From Nitratireductor sp. XY-223 (GTDB taxonomy: Bacteria; Pseudomonadota; Alphaproteobacteria; Rhizobiales; Rhizobiaceae), in NCBI RefSeq assembly GCF_004959855.1, contig NZ_SPNT01000004.1, forward strand, positions 310,001-374,000: DNA of 64,000 nucleotides, given 5' to 3'. Of the stretch, positions 24,059 through 43,040 are shown piece by piece. The notes below the pieces were generated by a model. The model was not told where the DNA came from. It saw nothing but the letters and a program-made list of their open reading frames with translations, and made no database searches. The translations under genes and the position numbers were made by a program. Within the stretch, counting starts at the first letter, position 1; each line of letters starts with the position of its first letter.

Positions 24059-25135
24059 ATGAAAAAGAGAATCGCAATTGTTGGCGGTGGTTTTGCAGGT
24101 GCGGAACTGGCCAAGTCATTGGAAGAAAAAGCGGATGTGACGCTCATCGAGCAGAATACTCATTTTGTTCATACGCCCGCCATGGTGAGAGCGACCGTTG
24201 ATCCATCGTTGCTGGACCGGGCACTCATCCCGTACGAAAAACTGCTGAAAAAAGGACGGATTGTGCACGGACGGGCCCAAAGCGTGGATGCAACCGGGGT
24301 CACAATGGACGACGGTGAGCAGATCGAGGCCGACTACACCGTTATCGCAACAGGTTCGGCCTATGCCGCTCCTTTCAAGGCGAAGGATGGTGAAATCGAT
24401 GGGCTGCGAGCTGCCAACGCTCAGATCAACCGCAAACTACGCAACGCAAAAACGATTGCGATTGTTGGCGCCGGTGCCGTGGGGACCGAATTGGCTGGTG
24501 AGATAAAGCACGCCATGCCCGACAAGAAAGTGACTTTGATCTCGGCGGATAAAACACTCTTTCCTGGATTTCCGGACAAGCTCGGAAATCAATTAGGGAG
24601 CAAGCTCAGGGCCGCTGGCGTAGATGTAATCTTGGGAGCGATGGCAGAGAACCTGAAAAGCTTGACGGAGCCTTATGCCGGATCGCTGACACTGGACAAC
24701 GGGCAACACGTTGACGCGGATCTCATCTTTCCGGTTGTCGGATCACGCGCGCGGCCCGAGCTGCTGGAATCACTTCCAGGCGCAAAAAAGAGCAGCTCCA
24801 ACCGGATAAAGGTTGATCAGTGGATGCGTCCGTCCGATTTGCCCAATGTCTTTGCAGTAGGGGATGTCGCGGACAATGGTGATCCGATGACGGTTGTGGC
24901 GATTAACCGGCAGGAACCCTGGCTTTCGAAAACCCTGCTGGCATTGGCCAAAGGAGCGAAAGTGGAGAACCAAAGACCCTACACGGCTGCGAACAAATCC
25001 ATGATCCTCATCCCTCTCGGACCCAATATCGGCAATTCATTCCTTGCAGTTGCGACAGTGGGCAACTTTCTAACACGGTTGTTCAAGGGCAAGGATTTGT
25101 TCCTGACCAAGTATAACAATTCCTTCGGCCGATAG
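24059..25135 (+). CDS. FAD-dependent pyridine nucleotide oxidoreductase (AIF/FSP1/Ndh2-like)
   Basis: 358 residues from ATG 24059; an alternative GTG at 24020 has a good GGAGG and would add 13 residues. The FAD site IAIVGGGFAGAELAKSLE opens the protein, the NAD(P) site TIAIVGAGAVGTELAGEI is central, and the FAD contact VFAVGDVADNG lies near the C-terminus. The overall pattern is that of AIFM2/FSP1 and type II NADH dehydrogenase relatives, which pass electrons to quinones. It follows the acyl-CoA synthetase by 74 bases and probably shares its promoter. Confidence 0.85.
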   Translation: MKKRIAIVGGGFAGAELAKSLEEKADVTLIEQNTHFVHTPAMVRATVDPSLLDRALIPYEKLLKKGRIVHGRAQSVDATGVTMDDGEQIEADYTVIATGSAYAAPFKAKDGEIDGLRAANAQINRKLRNAKTIAIVGAGAVGTELAGEIKHAMPDKKVTLISADKTLFPGFPDKLGNQLGSKLRAAGVDVILGAMAENLKSLTEPYAGSLTLDNGQHVDADLIFPVVGSRARPELLESLPGAKKSSSNRIKVDQWMRPSDLPNVFAVGDVADNGDPMTVVAINRQEPWLSKTLLALAKGAKVENQRPYTAANKSMILIPLGPNIGNSFLAVATVGNFLTRLFKGKDLFLTKYNNSFGR

Positions 25136-34098: not shown

Positions 34099-34506
34099 TC
34101 AGCCGGCCCAATAGGTGCGGGTCAATGCATAGCCGCTCGCGGAGGCTGCCGCGGTGAGCGCCATGCCCCAGACGATATCCACCACGAGCACGGTAAGCGG
34201 CCAGTTGCGCAGCGTCGCATAATTGGTGACGTCGTAGGTGCCGTAGGCAACAAGGCCGAGCAGTGCGCCGAGCATCAGCGCGGTCAGCAAGGACTGCTCC
34301 TTCAGCGCCGGCAACACCGCGAAGACAACGATGCCCGCCACGTAAAGAACGTAAAAGACCGCGGCCACACCAAGCCGCGGCTGGTCGAGCATGTAGGCGC
34401 CGAGCTGGCTGCGGTAAAAACCGCCGGCAATATAGGCCAGCCACAGATAGTCGATCACGAAAAAGACAAGCGCCGTCACGAGATAGGCTTTGATGAAAAG
34501 CTGCAT
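34099..34506 (-). CDS. DUF2177 family membrane protein
   Basis: 135 residues and four hydrophobic helices (YLVTALVFFVIDYLWLAYIAGGFY is typical). The frame could start at GTG 34521, but the sigma-E promoter -10 at 34540-34535 puts the transcript start within a few bases of it, so ATG 34506, which also matches the family N-terminus, is preferred. The family commonly sits in clusters with FAD amine oxidase, DUF1365 and ChrR, as here. Role unknown; membrane lipid change under photooxidative stress is inferred from context. Confidence 0.82.
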   Translation of the reverse strand: MQLFIKAYLVTALVFFVIDYLWLAYIAGGFYRSQLGAYMLDQPRLGVAAVFYVLYVAGIVVFAVLPALKEQSLLTALMLGALLGLVAYGTYDVTNYATLRNWPLTVLVVDIVWGMALTAAASASGYALTRTYWAG

Positions 34507-34534
34507 GGCGTTCCAGTTCACCGTTTATTTCCCT

Positions 34535-34564
34535 TTTTTACGGGTTGCCGGCGGGTTCGGATCA
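34535..34564 (-). promoter_or_regulatory. Sigma-E promoter of the DUF2177 gene
   Basis: On the minus strand TGATCC (34564-34559), 18 bases, then TAAAAA (34540-34535). It matches the TGATCC-N18-TA pattern seen at three other places in this region and the known Rhodobacter sphaeroides sigma-E consensus. Confidence 0.78.
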
Positions 34565-34601
34565 CATGGCCGAGAGCAGCGCTGAAATTCCGCATCGCAA
34601 G

Positions 34602-34631
34602 TGATCCGAGCGTGCCGGGCGCCCGTATGAA
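34602..34631 (+). promoter_or_regulatory. Sigma-E promoter of the amine oxidase operon
   Basis: TGATCC at 34602-34607, 18 bases, then TATGAA at 34626-34631. The predicted transcript start is about 30 bases before the TTG start codon at 34668. The ATG at 34627 lies inside the -10 and cannot be a start. Divergent from the DUF2177 promoter. Confidence 0.75.
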
Positions 34632-34667
34632 GTCCGTAGAACAGAGCGGCAAAAACGGGAGACACCG

Positions 34668-35993
34668 TTGCGTAAACAGAACATAGCGGTCATCGGCGGC
34701 GGGGTATCGGGGCTCTCGGCCGCCTGGTTGTTGAGCAAGGGGCACAATGTCACGCTTTTCGAGCGCGGCAACAGCCTCGGCGGCCACGCCCACACGGTGG
34801 ATGTCGAAACCGCGGACGGAACGGTGCCCGTCGACACGGGATTCATCGTCTTCAACAAGGCGAACTACCCCAATCTGTGCGCCCTGTTTCGCCACCTCGA
34901 TGTCGAATGCGCGACGACGGAGATGAGCTTTTCGCTCACCCACGATTTCGGCCGGTACGAATATGCCGGTCACGGCTCCGGATATTTCGGGCAAAGGCGC
35001 AACATCGCCAATGTCCAGCACTGGATGCTTTTGAAGGAAATCAACCGTTTTTTCCGCAATGCGCGGCGCCGGATCGCCCTTTATCACACCGACACGACAC
35101 TCGGTGAATTTCTCGAGCGCGAACACTATTCGCGCGACTTCATCGACGACCACATCATCCCCATGGGCGCCGCCATCTGGTCGACATCCATGGACCGGAT
35201 GCTCGAGTTTCCGGCGCGCGCCTTTGTCGACTTCTACGCCAATCACGGCATGCTGCAGTTCAAGAACCGGCCCGACTGGAACACGGTCGCGGGCGGCAGC
35301 CGTACCTATGTGAACAAGCTTGTCGCCGATGGCCGGTTCCACACCGTGCTCGGCGCGGACATCAAGACCGTCGCCCGCCGGCCGGACCGGGTGCTGATCA
35401 CAATGCGGGACGGGGTCACCCAGCTCTTCGACCACGTGGTCATGGCGACGCATGCCGACCAGGCGCTGGCGCTGCTCGGCGACCGGGATGCCGCCGAAGC
35501 GGCCCTCCTGAGCGCCTTTCCCTACCAGGAAAACACCGCGTTTCTGCACTGCGACGAACGGTGGATGCCGAAGCGCAACAGGCTGTGGTCGAGCTGGAAC
35601 TACATCAAGGCGGGCCGAAAATCGGCCGACGAACTGTGCGTCAGCTACTGGATGAACCGGCTGCAGTCGCTGCCGACGCGCGACAACATCTTCGTCACGC
35701 TCAACCCGATCCGCGAGATCGCGTCCGAGACGATCATCCGGGAAATGCGTTACGAACATCCGGTCTTCACCGCGGAGGCCTTCCGGGCCCAGGAGAACAT
35801 GCCGACGCTGCAGGGATACCGGCGCACCTGGTATTGCGGCAGCTATCTGGGCTACGGTTTCCACGAGGACGGCCTGGCCAGCGGCCTCGCGGTCGCGGAA
35901 AAGCTCGGCGGCCTGGCGAGGCCGTGGGCGAGCGATCCGGCGTTCGACCTGCGCCGCAGCGGTTTCGAGGAGTACCTGCAGGTGGCGGAATGA
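34668..35993 (+). CDS. FAD/NAD(P)-dependent amine-oxidase-like protein of the sigma-E cluster
   Basis: 441 residues. The FAD fold opens the protein (IAVIGGGVSGLSAAWLLSKGHNVTLFERGNSLGGHAHT), and DTGFIVFNKANYPNL follows. The start codon is TTG with GGGAG just upstream; no better start exists downstream of the promoter. Family members cluster with DUF1365, often a CFA-type methyltransferase, and ChrR/sigma-E. In Rhodobacter similar genes are sigma-E dependent and linked to fatty-acid modification, from memory. The gene ends with an ATGA overlap into DUF1365. Confidence 0.86.
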   Translation: MRKQNIAVIGGGVSGLSAAWLLSKGHNVTLFERGNSLGGHAHTVDVETADGTVPVDTGFIVFNKANYPNLCALFRHLDVECATTEMSFSLTHDFGRYEYAGHGSGYFGQRRNIANVQHWMLLKEINRFFRNARRRIALYHTDTTLGEFLEREHYSRDFIDDHIIPMGAAIWSTSMDRMLEFPARAFVDFYANHGMLQFKNRPDWNTVAGGSRTYVNKLVADGRFHTVLGADIKTVARRPDRVLITMRDGVTQLFDHVVMATHADQALALLGDRDAAEAALLSAFPYQENTAFLHCDERWMPKRNRLWSSWNYIKAGRKSADELCVSYWMNRLQSLPTRDNIFVTLNPIREIASETIIREMRYEHPVFTAEAFRAQENMPTLQGYRRTWYCGSYLGYGFHEDGLASGLAVAEKLGGLARPWASDPAFDLRRSGFEEYLQVAE

Positions 35994-36784
35994 CAAAACC
36001 CAGCGACGCGATCTATGTCGGCACGGTCATGCACCGGCGCCTGCGGCCGAAGCCGCACGGCTTTCGCTATTCCGTGTTCTCGTTGCTGGTCGACGTCGAC
36101 CACCTTCCCGGCCTCGGCCGGAAGCTGCGCCTGTTTTCCCACAACCGGTTCAACCTGTACGCGGTGCATGAAAGCGACCTCGGGAACGGCGGCGCCCTGA
36201 AACCCCATCTTGAAGGGATGGCGGCACAGGCGCTCGGCGCAAACCGCACGCGGCGATTTCTGATGCAGTGCTATCCGCGCGTCCTCGGTTACGTGTTCAA
36301 CCCGCTGACTGTTTATTACGGCCTCGACGCGCAGGATCGCACGACCGTCGTGATCTACGAGGTAACCAACACCTTCGGCGAGCGGCACAGCTATGCGATC
36401 CCGGTCGATCCCGCCGACAAAGGATGCATCCGGCAGAGTTGCGAAAAGGTGCTGCACGTATCGCCCTTCAACGCGGTGCGCGGCCGCTACGCCTTCAGGA
36501 CCCGCCTGCCGGGCCAAAGGGCGAATGTCGCGATCCTGCTCAAGGATGAGGACGGCCCGCTGCTCGCGGCGCAGTTCAGCGGCGAGCGCGTTCCGCTTTC
36601 CGATGCTTGGCTGGCACGCCTCGCCGTCACCCACGGTTTCATGACGGCGAAGGTCTGGCTCGGGATCCACTACGAGGCCCTGAAGCTCTGGAGCAAGCGG
36701 CTTCGTTTCTTTAAGAAACCGGCGCCGCCGACCGCTGCCGTTACCGTTCCGGTCGCGCACAAGAACCGGCGGATCGCGGCCTAG
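35990..36784 (+). CDS. DUF1365 family protein
   Basis: 264 residues from ATG 35990; the longer frame to 35561 lies inside the previous gene. Family marks are the N-terminal GTVMHRRLRPKPHGFRYSVFSLLVD, CYPRVLGYVFNPLTVYYG, and VLHVSPFN with FMTAKVWLGIHYEALKLW at the end. Function unknown; it nearly always pairs with the FAD amine-oxidase-like gene. Its TAG stop shares CTAG with the stop of the convergent SDR gene. Confidence 0.88.
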   Translation: MTKPSDAIYVGTVMHRRLRPKPHGFRYSVFSLLVDVDHLPGLGRKLRLFSHNRFNLYAVHESDLGNGGALKPHLEGMAAQALGANRTRRFLMQCYPRVLGYVFNPLTVYYGLDAQDRTTVVIYEVTNTFGERHSYAIPVDPADKGCIRQSCEKVLHVSPFNAVRGRYAFRTRLPGQRANVAILLKDEDGPLLAAQFSGERVPLSDAWLARLAVTHGFMTAKVWLGIHYEALKLWSKRLRFFKKPAPPTAAVTVPVAHKNRRIAA

Positions 36785-37560
36785 TCTTTCTGCTTTCCGG
36801 CTCCGGTCAGGCGTCTGATCAGCCAATAATAAAGCGCCGTCGGCAGGAAATTCGTCAACCGGATGATCGTCGTAAAACCGAACGGAAAGAAGATCGCCGA
36901 CTTGCGCCGGACGATGCCGTCGAGGAGCTTTTGCGCCGCCATGTCGGCGCTGATGAGCCCCGGCATCCTGAACCGGTTGACCCGCGCCATGGGCGTGTCG
37001 ACAAATCCCGGATTGACGATGGTTACCTCGATGCCCCATTCGTGCAACTCGAGCGCCAGCGTTTCGACCAGGTTGATCAGCGCCGCCTTTGTGGGCCCGT
37101 AGGCAACGGATGTCGGCAGGCCGCGGTAGCCGGCAACGGAGGCCACGACGACAATGCGGCCGCCGCCGCGCGCCTTCATGCCGGGCAGCAGCGCGTTGAC
37201 CGCGTTGACGACACCGAAATAGTTGATGTCCATCGCCTGGCGCATCCTCGATGTGTCCATCGCGTCCGCGGCCATCGGCAGCCAGATACCGGCGCAAAGA
37301 ACGGCAAGATCGATGCCGGAAAACTGCGCTTCGATGTCCTTGACGACCGCAGCGGTCGTCGCCTCATCGGAAATGTCGGCAGGAAAATCAAAGAGCCTTT
37401 CGCTGCCGAGCCGCATCTCCTGGAGTTTTTCCGCCGAGCGCGCCGTTATCGCGACCTTGTCAGCCCGGTCCTCGATCAGCCGGGCCAGGCTCGCTCCGAT
37501 GCCCGAACTCGCACCGACGATCCAGACATTGCCCAGTCCGGGCTTGTTGGAATAGGTCAT
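36781..37560 (-). CDS. SDR family NAD(P)-dependent oxidoreductase, third gene of rpoE-chrR operon
   Basis: 259 residues, classical short-chain dehydrogenase. Cofactor motif VGASSGIGASLARLIE, a catalytic Ser in VVASVAGYRGLPTSVAYGPTKAAL with Tyr and Lys in YxxxK (YGPTK), and a hydrophobic C-terminal stretch that may bind the membrane (IFFPFGFTTIIRLTNFLPTALYYWLI). It lies 19 bases after chrR and is presumably transcribed from the rpoE promoter. The substrate may be a lipid aldehyde or ketone; unproven. Confidence 0.86.
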   Translation of the reverse strand: MTYSNKPGLGNVWIVGASSGIGASLARLIEDRADKVAITARSAEKLQEMRLGSERLFDFPADISDEATTAAVVKDIEAQFSGIDLAVLCAGIWLPMAADAMDTSRMRQAMDINYFGVVNAVNALLPGMKARGGGRIVVVASVAGYRGLPTSVAYGPTKAALINLVETLALELHEWGIEVTIVNPGFVDTPMARVNRFRMPGLISADMAAQKLLDGIVRRKSAIFFPFGFTTIIRLTNFLPTALYYWLIRRLTGAGKQKD

Positions 37561-37579
37561 TGCGGGGTGCGGATCCGGT

Positions 37580-38248
37580 TCAGATGCCGACCAGCGGCTG
37601 CATCAGCCGGCTGACGATGCCCTTGAAGCGGGTCGGCTCCTCGGTCGCGACCAGGCAAATGCAGGGATCGTCCGAATCGACGACGGGCTGGTGTTCCACA
37701 TGCTCATCGAGATCGGCGATGTCGCCACGGGCGAAGCGGCCGATCGCGTCGCGGTAGGAGCCGCGCAGGATCAGGGTCATCTCGGTGCCGCCATGGCCGT
37801 GTTCCGGCATTTTCCTGCCCGGACCGATCTTCAGCATGAACAGCGACGAGCGGGTATCGGCGAGTTCGATGCGGTGCCTGTAGACGCCCGGCACCACGAG
37901 GCGCCACTGCAATTCGTCGAGCGACTTGCCGACCAGGCTGCTCAATGGCAGCGGCACATCGGCGGCGGGGTCGTTTGCCGGCGGCGGCGGCGCGGCCGGA
38001 TGCTCGTCGTTCGATCCGGTATCGGCATCGATCATCCGGGACAGGCGGGTAAAGGAGCCGTCGGACAGCGCCGCCTCCGGCATATCGGAAAGGCACGCAC
38101 CGCCAACGGCCTCGGCTACGCGCACCGCCTGCCGGCACTCGTCGCACATCGCAAGATGCGAGGCGACGACCACCGCGAAGGCGGGGTCGAGATCGCCGGC
38201 CGCATAGCGCATCAGCGATGCAGCATCCAGATGGTGATGAATGCTCAT
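37580..38248 (-). CDS. chrR: ChrR-type cupin anti-sigma factor
   Basis: 222 residues. The N-terminal zinc-binding anti-sigma domain has H31-x3-C35-x2-C38 (HLAMCDEC) and an earlier His cluster at 4-6. The C-terminal cupin has H150, H152, E156 (PEHGHGGTE) and H186, plus C196-x-C198. These are each nine residues past the residues I recall as the cupin zinc ligands and redox-sensitive pair of Rhodobacter ChrR (141, 143, 147, 177, 187, 189). It holds sigma-E inactive until singlet oxygen or peroxide signals release. ATGA overlap with rpoE. Confidence 0.93.
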   Translation of the reverse strand: MSIHHHLDAASLMRYAAGDLDPAFAVVVASHLAMCDECRQAVRVAEAVGGACLSDMPEAALSDGSFTRLSRMIDADTGSNDEHPAAPPPPANDPAADVPLPLSSLVGKSLDELQWRLVVPGVYRHRIELADTRSSLFMLKIGPGRKMPEHGHGGTEMTLILRGSYRDAIGRFARGDIADLDEHVEHQPVVDSDDPCICLVATEEPTRFKGIVSRLMQPLVGI

Positions 38249-38844
38249 CTCAAATCCTCGAGGTTTTCCTTCAGTTTCTTGTAGGCCAGCCGGGTGCGGG
38301 ACTTCACCGTGCCGATGGGCAGGTCCAGCTTCCTGGCAATCTCGCTCTGCGGCATATACTGGTTGAACGCCAATTCGATCACATCCCGCTGTTCCTTCGG
38401 CAAACGCTGCAGCGCCTCGCGGACCAGTTCGCCGCGCTGGCCGGTTATCATTTCCGCTTCTGCGCTCGGCGCGTCACTGGCGATCGAAACGGTCTCGACA
38501 TCCACATAGGGCTGGACGGGCTGCCGCCGCAGCCGGTCGATACGCGCGTTGCGCGCTATGGTGAATATCCAGGTCGAAACTGTGCCGCGCTCAGGCGCAT
38601 AGAGCGCGGCCTTGCGCCAAACCGTCAACATGACTTCCTGCATCAGGTCCTCCGCAAGGTCTTGGCTCGCCCCTGAGCCGAGCATCATTCCCTTGATCCT
38701 TGGGCCGAACCGGACGAACAGGGTTTCGAAAGCCGATTTGTCGCGTTGGACGGCGACGGCCGATATCAGCGCCTCGAATTGCGCCTGATCCGTTTTTTGT
38801 CCCGGATCCTCGGTCGGTTCTTCCATCCGCAAGACTTTCAGCAT
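38245..38844 (-). CDS. rpoE: Sigma-E (ECF RpoE) sigma factor, ChrR-controlled
   Basis: 199 residues from ATG 38844. Sigma region 2 is at about 30-105 (FETLFVRFGPRIKGMML, DLMQEVMLTVWRKA, TWIFTIARNARIDRLRR) and region 4 at about 140-195 (LPKEQRDVIELAFNQ, SEIARKLDLPIGTVKSRTRLAYKKL). The frame also has ATG 38874, but that codon is part of the promoter's -10 (TAATGG), so it cannot be translated from this transcript; ATG 38826 is a further alternative. It directs RNA polymerase to the TGATCC-N18-TA promoters nearby, including its own. Confidence 0.93.
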   Translation of the reverse strand: MLKVLRMEEPTEDPGQKTDQAQFEALISAVAVQRDKSAFETLFVRFGPRIKGMMLGSGASQDLAEDLMQEVMLTVWRKAALYAPERGTVSTWIFTIARNARIDRLRRQPVQPYVDVETVSIASDAPSAEAEMITGQRGELVREALQRLPKEQRDVIELAFNQYMPQSEIARKLDLPIGTVKSRTRLAYKKLKENLEDLR

Positions 38845-38870
38845 CGTCCGGCCTTTTGTTTTAACCGGAA

Positions 38871-38900
38871 CCATTACGTCGGCCGCACGTCATCGGATCA
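38871..38900 (-). promoter_or_regulatory. Autoregulated sigma-E promoter of rpoE-chrR-SDR
   Basis: On the minus strand TGATCC (38900-38895), 18 bases, then TAATGG (38876-38871). The same layout occurs at 34535, 34602 and 38959. Autoregulation of rpoE from such a promoter is established in Rhodobacter. Confidence 0.8.
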
Positions 38901-38958
38901 CGGCCGTTGAAAATTTATCAGCATTTTCTGCGTGAAGGGCAATTTTCTCCATCACCGG

Positions 38959-38988
38959 TGATCCGTTGAGGGCGTGACGGCGTAACCC
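38959..38988 (+). promoter_or_regulatory. Sigma-E promoter of the fasciclin gene
   Basis: TGATCC at 38959-38964, 18 bases, then TAACCC at 38983-38988. The start codon at 39053 follows after about 60 bases of leader. Divergent from the rpoE promoter. Confidence 0.72.
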
Positions 38989-39052: not shown

Positions 39053-39541
39053 ATGCAGAAAATGATTATCGCGGCATCCGTCGCAATGGGAATCGCAGCA
39101 GCCGCACCCGCGCATGCCGCGAACATCGTTGAAACCGCGCAGGGCGCCGGCACCTTCAACACGCTTCTTGCCGCGGCACAGGCCGCGGGGCTTGCAGACG
39201 CATTGGCAACCGGCGAGAACCTGACCGTCTTCGCACCCACGGACGAGGCCTTCGCGGCGCTTCCGGCCGGCACCGTCGAGAACCTGTTGAAGCCGGAGAA
39301 CAAGGACCAGCTGATTGCCATCCTCAGCTACCATGTGCTGCCGCGCAAGCTGATGTCCACCGACCTTCCGGGCCGGCGCATTCACGTCAAGACGCTGAAA
39401 ACTGCCGGTGACAAGACGCTTTCGGTCGAAAAATCCTCCGCCGGCGTGACGGTGGACAACGCCAATGTCGTTTCCGCCGACATTATCGCCGATAACGGCG
39501 TCATCCACGTTATCGACACTGTCGTACTCCCCTCCAACTGA
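39053..39541 (+). CDS. Secreted fasciclin (FAS1) domain protein
   Basis: 162 residues. An N-terminal signal peptide, MQKMIIAASVAMGIAAAAPAHA, ends at Ala-x-Ala. A single FAS1 domain follows: H1 motif TVFAPTDEAFAALP, the YH motif in LSYHVLP, and H2 motif NGVIHVIDTVVLP. GGAG at 39043-39046 precedes ATG 39053. FAS1 proteins are adhesion-like; similar small secreted ones belong to sigma-E regulons in Rhodobacter as I recall. The promoter here agrees, so it is likely made in the photooxidative stress response. A strong terminator follows. Confidence 0.92.
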   Translation: MQKMIIAASVAMGIAAAAPAHAANIVETAQGAGTFNTLLAAAQAAGLADALATGENLTVFAPTDEAFAALPAGTVENLLKPENKDQLIAILSYHVLPRKLMSTDLPGRRIHVKTLKTAGDKTLSVEKSSAGVTVDNANVVSADIIADNGVIHVIDTVVLPSN

Positions 39542-41699: not shown

Positions 41700-43040
41700 A
41701 TGAATGCCCCGCCCGAAGACAGTGGATCGGACCGTAACAGTTCACGGGGATTGGGGCTCGGGCTGGGCCTTGGTCTCGGCCTCGGCAATTCGCGCCGCAC
41801 CGAAGCCGATTCGTCGGGCGGCCTCGGGCTTGGGACCGGCCTGGGGCTCGGCAGCGGCCTCGGCCTGGGGCTCGGTTCCGGATTGGGGCTCGGACTGGGA
41901 CTGGGCCTCGGCAGCACCTTCGATCCCGGAAAGGATGCCGGCGCCGGCGGCGGTATCGGCACCATCCGCAGCTATTACGCGACTCCTTACGAATTGCGGC
42001 AGATTCCCTGGACGCTGGACTTCACGCCCGACAATAGCGGCGCCACGCCGTTTCCGCTCGCTTACCTGATCAACCCCTACCAGCTCGCCGGCGACCCGCT
42101 TTTATGGACAACGGAGGACTGGGATCCGGCGCTGCGATTCTGGTCGCTGCCCTACGATCCGCACCTGACGGAATGGCTGCGCGCCGCCGACCGGACGGAG
42201 CCGGCCACCCTCGCGGCGCTCGAATTCGGCGGCCAGCCGGACAAGTGGCATCCGGACCTGATCGACCCGGAAGCGTTCCGGTGGCTGGAAAAAACCGATC
42301 TGGACTGGATGGAAGGCAGGCCCGCAGTCGGAGCGGAGCCCGTCGGGTTCGCCTTTATCAAGGCCGAGCTCGAACAGTTGAAGATCTACATGGAGGACGA
42401 CCGCGCCCGCTACCTGTTCGAGAGCGACGTGCAGGCGGACGGCTTGCCGGATTACCTGATCCATTTCCTCGGTGCCGATTCCATCAGCCATCCCTGGACC
42501 CTGGAACTGATCAATTGCGGCCTGTCGATCGGAAACGTCGCCTACATGGTCTACAAGGAGCACTACAAACGCGTGCGCCCCTCGGTGCTGCGGCCGGGGC
42601 TGACGGTTCCGTTCGGTCCGCCGGCGCACCCGGCCTACCCCAGCGGCCATTCGTTCCTGGCGCATTTCATCGCTCTGCTGCTGCTGGAAATTCCCGGCAT
42701 CTACCAGCGCTTCGGCGTGCTGCCGGACGGCCAGCCGGCCGACAACGGGGGTATCCTGCGAAAGCCCGAATGGCGTGACCTGAACGGGACCAATCCGATC
42801 CCCTCGCCGCTGCTGAACATCGCGCATCGCATCGCCGTCAACCGCGAACGCATCGGTGTGCATTATCCGTCGGATTCGACCGGCAGCCGGCACCTCGCCG
42901 CCGGCATCTGGGACGCGCTGATCAACCGCGGCCTGCAGAATGTTCCGGGCCGCGGCGGTGCGCAGCCGCAGCCGATCGATGCGCCGACACTGATGCGCGT
43001 CATCGATCACGCGAAGACGGAGTGGCCGACGCCCTGGTGA
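41700..43040 (+). CDS. PAP2 / vanadium-dependent haloperoxidase family protein with Gly-Leu repeat N-terminus
   Basis: 446 residues. Residues 17-71 are almost only Gly-Leu repeats, broken by a polar linker. The PAP2/haloperoxidase domain fills about 110-440 with the three vanadate/phosphate motifs in order: K-x6-RP (KEHYKRVRP), PSGH (YPSGHSFLAH) and R-x4-HYPSD (RERIGVHYPSD). It could be a bromo/iodoperoxidase or a phosphatase. It lacks a normal signal peptide. AGGAGG precedes the ATG. Convergent with the large HEFGH protein, 27 bases away. Confidence 0.85.
   Translation: MNAPPEDSGSDRNSSRGLGLGLGLGLGLGNSRRTEADSSGGLGLGTGLGLGSGLGLGLGSGLGLGLGLGLGSTFDPGKDAGAGGGIGTIRSYYATPYELRQIPWTLDFTPDNSGATPFPLAYLINPYQLAGDPLLWTTEDWDPALRFWSLPYDPHLTEWLRAADRTEPATLAALEFGGQPDKWHPDLIDPEAFRWLEKTDLDWMEGRPAVGAEPVGFAFIKAELEQLKIYMEDDRARYLFESDVQADGLPDYLIHFLGADSISHPWTLELINCGLSIGNVAYMVYKEHYKRVRPSVLRPGLTVPFGPPAHPAYPSGHSFLAHFIALLLLEIPGIYQRFGVLPDGQPADNGGILRKPEWRDLNGTNPIPSPLLNIAHRIAVNRERIGVHYPSDSTGSRHLAAGIWDALINRGLQNVPGRGGAQPQPIDAPTLMRVIDHAKTEWPTPW
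41748..41912 (+). repeat. Gly-Leu dipeptide repeat coding tract
   Basis: Codes for two blocks of alternating Gly and Leu (residues 17-29 and 40-71 of the haloperoxidase-like protein) joined by an Asn/Ser/Arg/Glu linker. Codons for both residues vary (GGA, GGG, GGC, GGT; TTG, CTC, CTG, CTT), so the pattern is kept at protein level rather than being a simple DNA microsatellite. Confidence 0.9.

Follow-up and report, generated by a model that had tools for sequence, protein, structure and literature searches.

A probable ECF11 sigma-E/ChrR regulon with four predicted TGATCC-N16-CGTA promoters in Nitratireductor sp. XY-223

A 64,000-nucleotide stretch of the Nitratireductor sp. XY-223 genome (NZ_SPNT01000004.1, positions 310,001 to 374,000; the whole stretch is called the window) was analyzed around a gene cluster coding for an RpoE sigma factor, a ChrR anti-sigma factor, a short-chain dehydrogenase/reductase (SDR), a flavin adenine dinucleotide (FAD)-dependent oxidase, a DUF1365 protein, a DUF2177 protein and a fasciclin-domain protein. 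Very probably, the cluster forms an ECF11 sigma-E/ChrR regulon directed at singlet oxygen and organic peroxide. A local sigma-E/ChrR regulon had been proposed in a first-pass annotation of the same letters, and the proposal was supported: ECF11 is matched by the sigma factor and ChrR as well as by the consensus and the gene set, and the promoters are found at orthologous places within the genus.

The first-pass annotation had described TGATCC, 18 bases and TA at four sites, and all four are present as described. The sequence common to them is tighter than that pattern and reads GTGATCCG-N15-CGTA, i.e. TGATCC-N16-CGTA (Table 1). The sites form two back-to-back pairs, one serving the DUF2177 and FAD oxidase (ufaD) genes and one serving rpoE and the fasciclin gene. 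Counted from the TA, the likely start codon lies at 32 (DUF2177), 40 (ufaD), 30 (rpoE) and 68 (fasciclin) bases. The longest rpoE reading frame starts from an ATG at 38874; since this codon overlaps the −10 element, the ATG at 38844 is more likely the start. Transcription from the four sites is predicted from their sequence and position.

Table 1. Predicted promoters and genes of the cluster (window coordinates).
Feature	Position	Strand	Remarks
Predicted sigma-E type promoter TGATCC-N16-CGTA, DUF2177	34564-34539	-	then TAAAAA
Predicted sigma-E type promoter TGATCC-N16-CGTA, ufaD-ufaO	34602-34627	+	then TATGAA
Predicted sigma-E type promoter TGATCC-N16-CGTA, rpoE-chrR-SDR (autoregulation)	38900-38875	-	then TAATGG
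Predicted sigma-E type promoter TGATCC-N16-CGTA, fasciclin gene	38959-38984	+	then TAACCC
DUF2177 predicted membrane protein	34099..34506	-	PF09945 E=6.6e-45; ATG at 34506, GTG at 34521 also possible
FAD-dependent amine-oxidase-like protein, likely UfaD (RSP_1091 type)	34668..35993	+	PF01593
DUF1365 protein, likely UfaO (RSP_1090 type)	35990..36784	+	PF07103 E=4.9e-74
SDR	36781..37560	-	PF00106; 19 bases after chrR, same strand
ChrR zinc anti-sigma factor with cupin-like domain	37580..38248	-	TIGR02451, PDB 2z2s_B, zinc ligands
ECF11-type sigma factor RpoE	38245..38844	-	Sigma70_r2 and r4; ATG at 38844
FAS1 (fasciclin domain) protein	39053..39541	+	PF02469 E=6.5e-36; ATG after AGGAG

It is hardly conceivable that four such matches arose by chance in GC-rich intergenic DNA. 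The loose pattern TGATCC-N18-TA has five matches in the window, a number reached in 1/100 shuffles (mean of the 100 shuffles 0.88), and this single shuffle speaks for chance; the fifth match (24880-24905, + strand) has no CG before the TA. For the tight motif, in contrast, base composition (61.5% GC) predicts 0.09 occurrences in the window; four were found, all upstream of genes, and the motif recurs in relatives. The genome-wide search proposed in the first-pass annotation was carried out in both forms. With the loose form, 66 matches were obtained and the pattern proved a poor detector; the tight form comprises the 18 of these 66 matches with CG before the TA. From base composition, 9.0 sites were expected in the genome. 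As a control, the spacer was varied (TGATCC-N(6 to 30)-CGTA), giving 167 matches; 149 of them are spread over the 24 spacers other than 16, with a mean of 6.2, so the 18 sites at spacer 16 represent an excess (Poisson p 9e-5). Following this control and the finding of orthologous sites, chance alignment was rejected.

Orthologous sites were sought in 20 relatives' loci (7 of the genus and 13 others); genus counts refer to 8 genomes, own included. TGATC[C/T]-N16-CGTA was found at the orthologous place of DUF2177, of ufaD and of rpoE in 8/8 genus genomes each, the rpoE site being TGATCT in three. The fasciclin site is present in five of the six genus genomes with a fasciclin gene at that place, and the sixth carries a TGATCT form about 370 bases upstream. 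One further site of the window's genome precedes an RpoH-type sigma gene located elsewhere (Pfam sigma regions 2 and 4; G000:C22, L014:2457-2700 upstream; L and G numbers are our handles for loci and genomes), and this site was found in 6/6 genus genomes scanned (own, G001, G003, G004, G006 and G007; G002 and G005 were left out). The RpoH label is our presumption from the sequence of the gene at L014. In total, the relatives' 20 loci hold 35 exact sites with N16, of which one falls within ufaD (L079), and two with N15, both within ufaO; none was found with N17. Because the motif letters served to pick the sites, the conservation of these letters is no evidence; what counts is the recurrence of a site at each orthologous place despite drifted spacers, the mean pairwise identity of the spacers of the four window promoters being 0.28-0.31. 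In addition, a G that was not selected for precedes TGATC in 35/35 aligned sites of the four window promoters and the RpoH-type one, though not in all other genome sites.

It is very unlikely that the four boxes are conserved without all being working promoters, for instance with the DUF2177 or the fasciclin site being weak or having another role. Such a reading draws on the evidence being one of sequence, and on Pseudomonas syringae, where 66/87 motif-bearing chromatin immunoprecipitation (ChIP) peaks are reported to lie inside or antisense to genes (PMC5507510). The four window sites, however, are all intergenic, 30-68 bases from the likely start codon, and the orthologous places keep their sites while the spacers drift.

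The first-pass claim that the cluster encodes a sigma factor together with its ChrR anti-sigma factor was supported by comparison of the protein sequences. Among solved structures, the best PDB match of RpoE is Rhodobacter sphaeroides RpoE (2q1z_A, E=7.1e-37), the next match having E=1.4e-16. ChrR matches 2z2s_B (E=2e-43) and also 2q1z. It scores 200 bits against TIGR02451, over the cut-off of 124.5, and 168.7 bits against the ChrR equivalog NF051881, under its cut-off of 300. All eight zinc ligands align with the published ones, i.e. H6, H31, C35 and C38 in the anti-sigma domain and H150, H152, E156 and H186 in the cupin-like domain. The features of ECF11 membership that were found are R. sphaeroides RpoE as the nearest solved sigma factor, an adjacent two-domain ChrR, and TGATCC-N16-CGTA sites including one before rpoE. 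The SDR gene is probably the third gene of the rpoE-chrR operon, and its product belongs to the same broad family as RSP_1087.

The FAD oxidase and DUF1365 genes are adjacent and overlap by four bases. Both had been listed as of unknown function in the first-pass annotation, which is out of date: in R. sphaeroides, PMC7380195 identifies RSP1091 as UfaD and the DUF1365 protein RSP1090 as UfaO, both required for a methylated furan fatty acid, and RSP1087-1089 as dispensable for it. The P. syringae UfaD counterpart is likewise annotated as a flavin-containing amine oxidase (PMC5507510). The window's proteins are likely UfaD and UfaO, as judged by family and position and not by direct comparison with the R. 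sphaeroides proteins, and the organism may make furan fatty acids. The DUF1365 gene is the only DUF1365 match found in the genome. A structure model of its product (35990-36784) shows a beta barrel that bears a weak likeness to nitrobindin and fatty-acid-binding proteins, at scores within the range of common arrangements; such a barrel, as modeled, suggests a fold suited to an enzyme acting on a lipid chain.

A candidate for UfaM was found in the CFA-synthase family. The gene G000:C11:1079542 is 39-54% identical to copies beside ufaO in the loci of six other genomes, whereas the three other strong CFA-family copies of the genome show 28-35% identity to those ufaO-side genes. Three of the genome's four strong CFA-family copies were compared with NCBIfam, and none of the three was named UfaM. 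The candidate itself scored under every NCBIfam cut-off, while the C33 copy was classed as CFA synthase. A frame that we presume to be lycopene cyclase-like (L086:12494-13783) lies at about 6 kb from the candidate.

The DUF2177 protein was modeled with five helices (pLDDT, the predicted local distance difference test score, 95.8), and structure comparison of the model matched no solved fold. Across 43 sequences, residues D19, W22, Y52, Y88, N95, D110 and W113 vary hardly or not at all. Outside the genus but within its family, the DUF2177 gene stands behind chrR (L074, L076) or carries its own exact site (L078, L079); in loci from two further families it is preceded by an exact site (L080) or by a TGATCT form (L073). 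DUF2177 was found in 31 of 289 genomes of the class. DUF1365 is present in 29 of these 31 genomes versus 113/258 without DUF2177 (Fisher p 3.5e-8, for genomes that are related and not independent); a tally from listed coordinates places the two within about 5 kb in 9 of the 29 genomes with both. TGATC[C/T]-N16-[C/T]GTA, sought from 400 bases upstream to 40 bases inside DUF2177, was found at 5/30 class loci, the window's own included (loci from 30 of the 31 DUF2177-bearing genomes). With the motif at only these 5 loci, the idea that DUF2177 is a sigma-E target throughout the class found no support. DUF2177 might be a working part of a furan-fatty-acid/singlet-oxygen module, e.g. as the membrane component handling or sensing oxidized furan lipids and linking them to ChrR turnover, and might belong with the CFA-type methylase, DUF1365 and fasciclin to a toolkit common to proteobacteria and Chlamydomonas; this idea is tentative and rather unlikely to hold.

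The regulon is proposed to work as follows. ChrR would keep RpoE inactive, and singlet oxygen or its lipid products would lead to degradation of ChrR. The freed RpoE would transcribe its own operon rpoE-chrR-SDR as well as ufaD-ufaO, DUF2177 and the fasciclin gene from the local promoters, and would drive the RpoH-type sigma gene elsewhere, spreading the response. Furan fatty acids would feed back by helping ChrR turnover; the ECF11 review states that ChrR turnover in singlet oxygen needs the furan-fatty-acid-making proteins, and calls the signal path to this turnover an open question (PMC6852236). Degradation of ChrR in the window's organism is expected by analogy with homologous systems.

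Several findings weigh against this reading. No reaction-centre gene (Photo_RC) was matched in 8/8 genus genomes, in a search whose controls matched only in Synechococcus and whose sensitivity for purple bacteria is untested, and because of this an internal source of singlet oxygen is not evident and we infer singlet oxygen as the signal from homologues. The counterparts of photolyase and UfaM are regulon members in R. sphaeroides, and both a photolyase gene and CFA-family genes exist in the window's genome; scans of 10-14 kb around photolyase and the UfaM candidate gave no exact motif, with one −35 mismatch allowed and weaker sites remaining possible. Near photolyase no such form was found; the UfaM candidate has two one-mismatch forms at a distance of 4-7 kb, neither of which precedes it. 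Seven of the 18 genome sites (L009, L010, L012, L017, L018, L019 and L020) fall within long mechanical reading frames and probably have no promoter role; two of them (L012 and L018) nevertheless recur in relatives with similar spacers. Finally, an exact site is missing from 6/20 relatives' loci (L070, L072, L073, L075, L081 and L082). L072 has a TGATCT form before rpoE and L073 has TGATCT forms before DUF2177 and ufaD; a ChrR match was not found at L081 and L082, which may hold other sigma factors.

The same ECF11 regulon could have another natural signal, such as organic hydroperoxide, UV-A, metals or other stress in place of singlet oxygen. We consider this possible, with a likelihood well short of even. 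The missing Photo_RC match in the 8 genus genomes agrees with it, as do statements in PMC6852236 that the R. sphaeroides system is activated by tert-butyl hydroperoxide (t-BOOH) too and that, in Caulobacter, the system reacts to singlet oxygen and organic hydroperoxides and, at a slower pace, to other inducers. On the other side, the site stands before the ufaD-ufaO type genes in every genus genome examined, and genes of this type have been linked in R. sphaeroides with the singlet-oxygen branch of ChrR turnover. External photosensitizers may plausibly supply singlet oxygen. The first-pass annotation had gathered DUF2177, DUF1365, the FAD oxidase, the SDR and FAS1 into one singlet-oxygen stress response; the grouping is supported by the sites at orthologous places, while the singlet-oxygen part is carried over from homologues.

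A regulon of this type, with lipid, SDR and fasciclin members, is already known: the consensus from P. syringae, the regulon table of R. sphaeroides and a fasciclin report from Azospirillum brasilense all match. The P. syringae consensus, obtained by ChIP-Seq, is TGATCC-N16-CGTA, and the PSPTO_1043/1042 regulon shares it together with SDR, UfaO and UfaD homologues (PMC5507510). Its lipid genes are found in the phrB locus (PSPTO_1121-1114), apart from the sigma gene, whereas those of the window are neighbors of rpoE, under divergent promoters. For R. sphaeroides, the table of the RpoE regulon comprises rpoE, chrR, cfaS, phrA, RSP_1087 to 1091, rpoHII, the fasciclin RSP_1409 and others, and thereby already includes SDR, UfaD/UfaO and fasciclin counterparts (PMC7074977). 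In A. brasilense, a fasciclin is reported under RpoE-ChrR control (as cited in PMC10949492). The Bradyrhizobium paper PMC3420878 covers other ECF groups.

The window's system resembles the R. sphaeroides ECF11 system in its RpoE and ChrR homologues with eight zinc ligands, in the ufaD-ufaO type genes beside rpoE, and in SDR, fasciclin and RpoH-type sigma genes as predicted targets. It differs in that the fasciclin and DUF2177 genes sit in the cluster, that the SDR gene stands behind chrR and not in an operon such as RSP_1087-1091, and in the above-mentioned absence of an exact motif at photolyase or the UfaM candidate and of a detected reaction-centre gene. The R. sphaeroides table makes no mention of DUF2177, though it includes two hypothetical proteins (RSP_1088 and RSP_6222) to which no family was assigned here (PMC7074977). 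The SAK1-dependent singlet-oxygen acclimation genes of Chlamydomonas, an induced set given in PMC4067076, include CFA1, CFA2, a fasciclin-like protein, DUF1365 and DUF2177, the same families as here; that regulator is eukaryotic, and the likeness to the window is at family level only. The comparison with R. sphaeroides drawn in that text concerns the CFA genes only.

With this cluster, a well-studied light-stress regulon is extended to a Rhizobiaceae lineage without detectable photosynthesis genes, in which it is not obvious where singlet oxygen would come from. The orthologous promoters make up a clean set, and DUF2177 becomes a testable candidate for a step between membrane lipid oxidation and loss of ChrR.

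Outside the in-frame sites, about 9 to 11 of the 18 genome sites look promoter-like, in agreement with the excess of about 12 over the spacer control; some other genome sites also overlap mechanical frames. Four of the 18 lie in the window. Another is found just upstream of the genome's other fasciclin gene (L021:2528-3079; G000:C56:97327 on), so that both fasciclin genes found in the genome carry a TGATCC-N16-CGTA site; that of the second gene is also present in 3/5 further genus genomes scanned. The FAS1 protein of the window has an N-terminus that, by eye, looks like a signal segment. Two sites precede small proteins without a Pfam match, one lying 36 bases upstream of a 99-residue protein (L011:2508-2866), which looks secreted from its signal-like N-terminus, and one 40 bases upstream of a 110-residue protein (L016:2205-2600). 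The homologue of the former in G007 has a site 39 bases upstream, and homologues of the latter carry sites in G004 and G006. A further site precedes a PadR regulator and, behind it, a frame that we presume to be HlyD-like. An Inh (protease inhibitor) protein and a LuxR-type regulator have one site each at larger distances (121 and 140 bases, respectively).

The spacer of the RpoH-type promoter is conserved, with a mean pairwise identity of 0.88 between the genome's own site and its orthologues in 5 genus genomes versus 0.28-0.31 for the window promoters, and about 40 bases just upstream, holding a similar CGATTG element, are conserved as well. Because of this conserved spacer and upstream block, the sequence suggests a second regulator at this promoter. 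Elsewhere in the window, a GLGLGLG-rich low-complexity stretch (41700-41930) starts a 446-residue frame, presumably PAP2-like.

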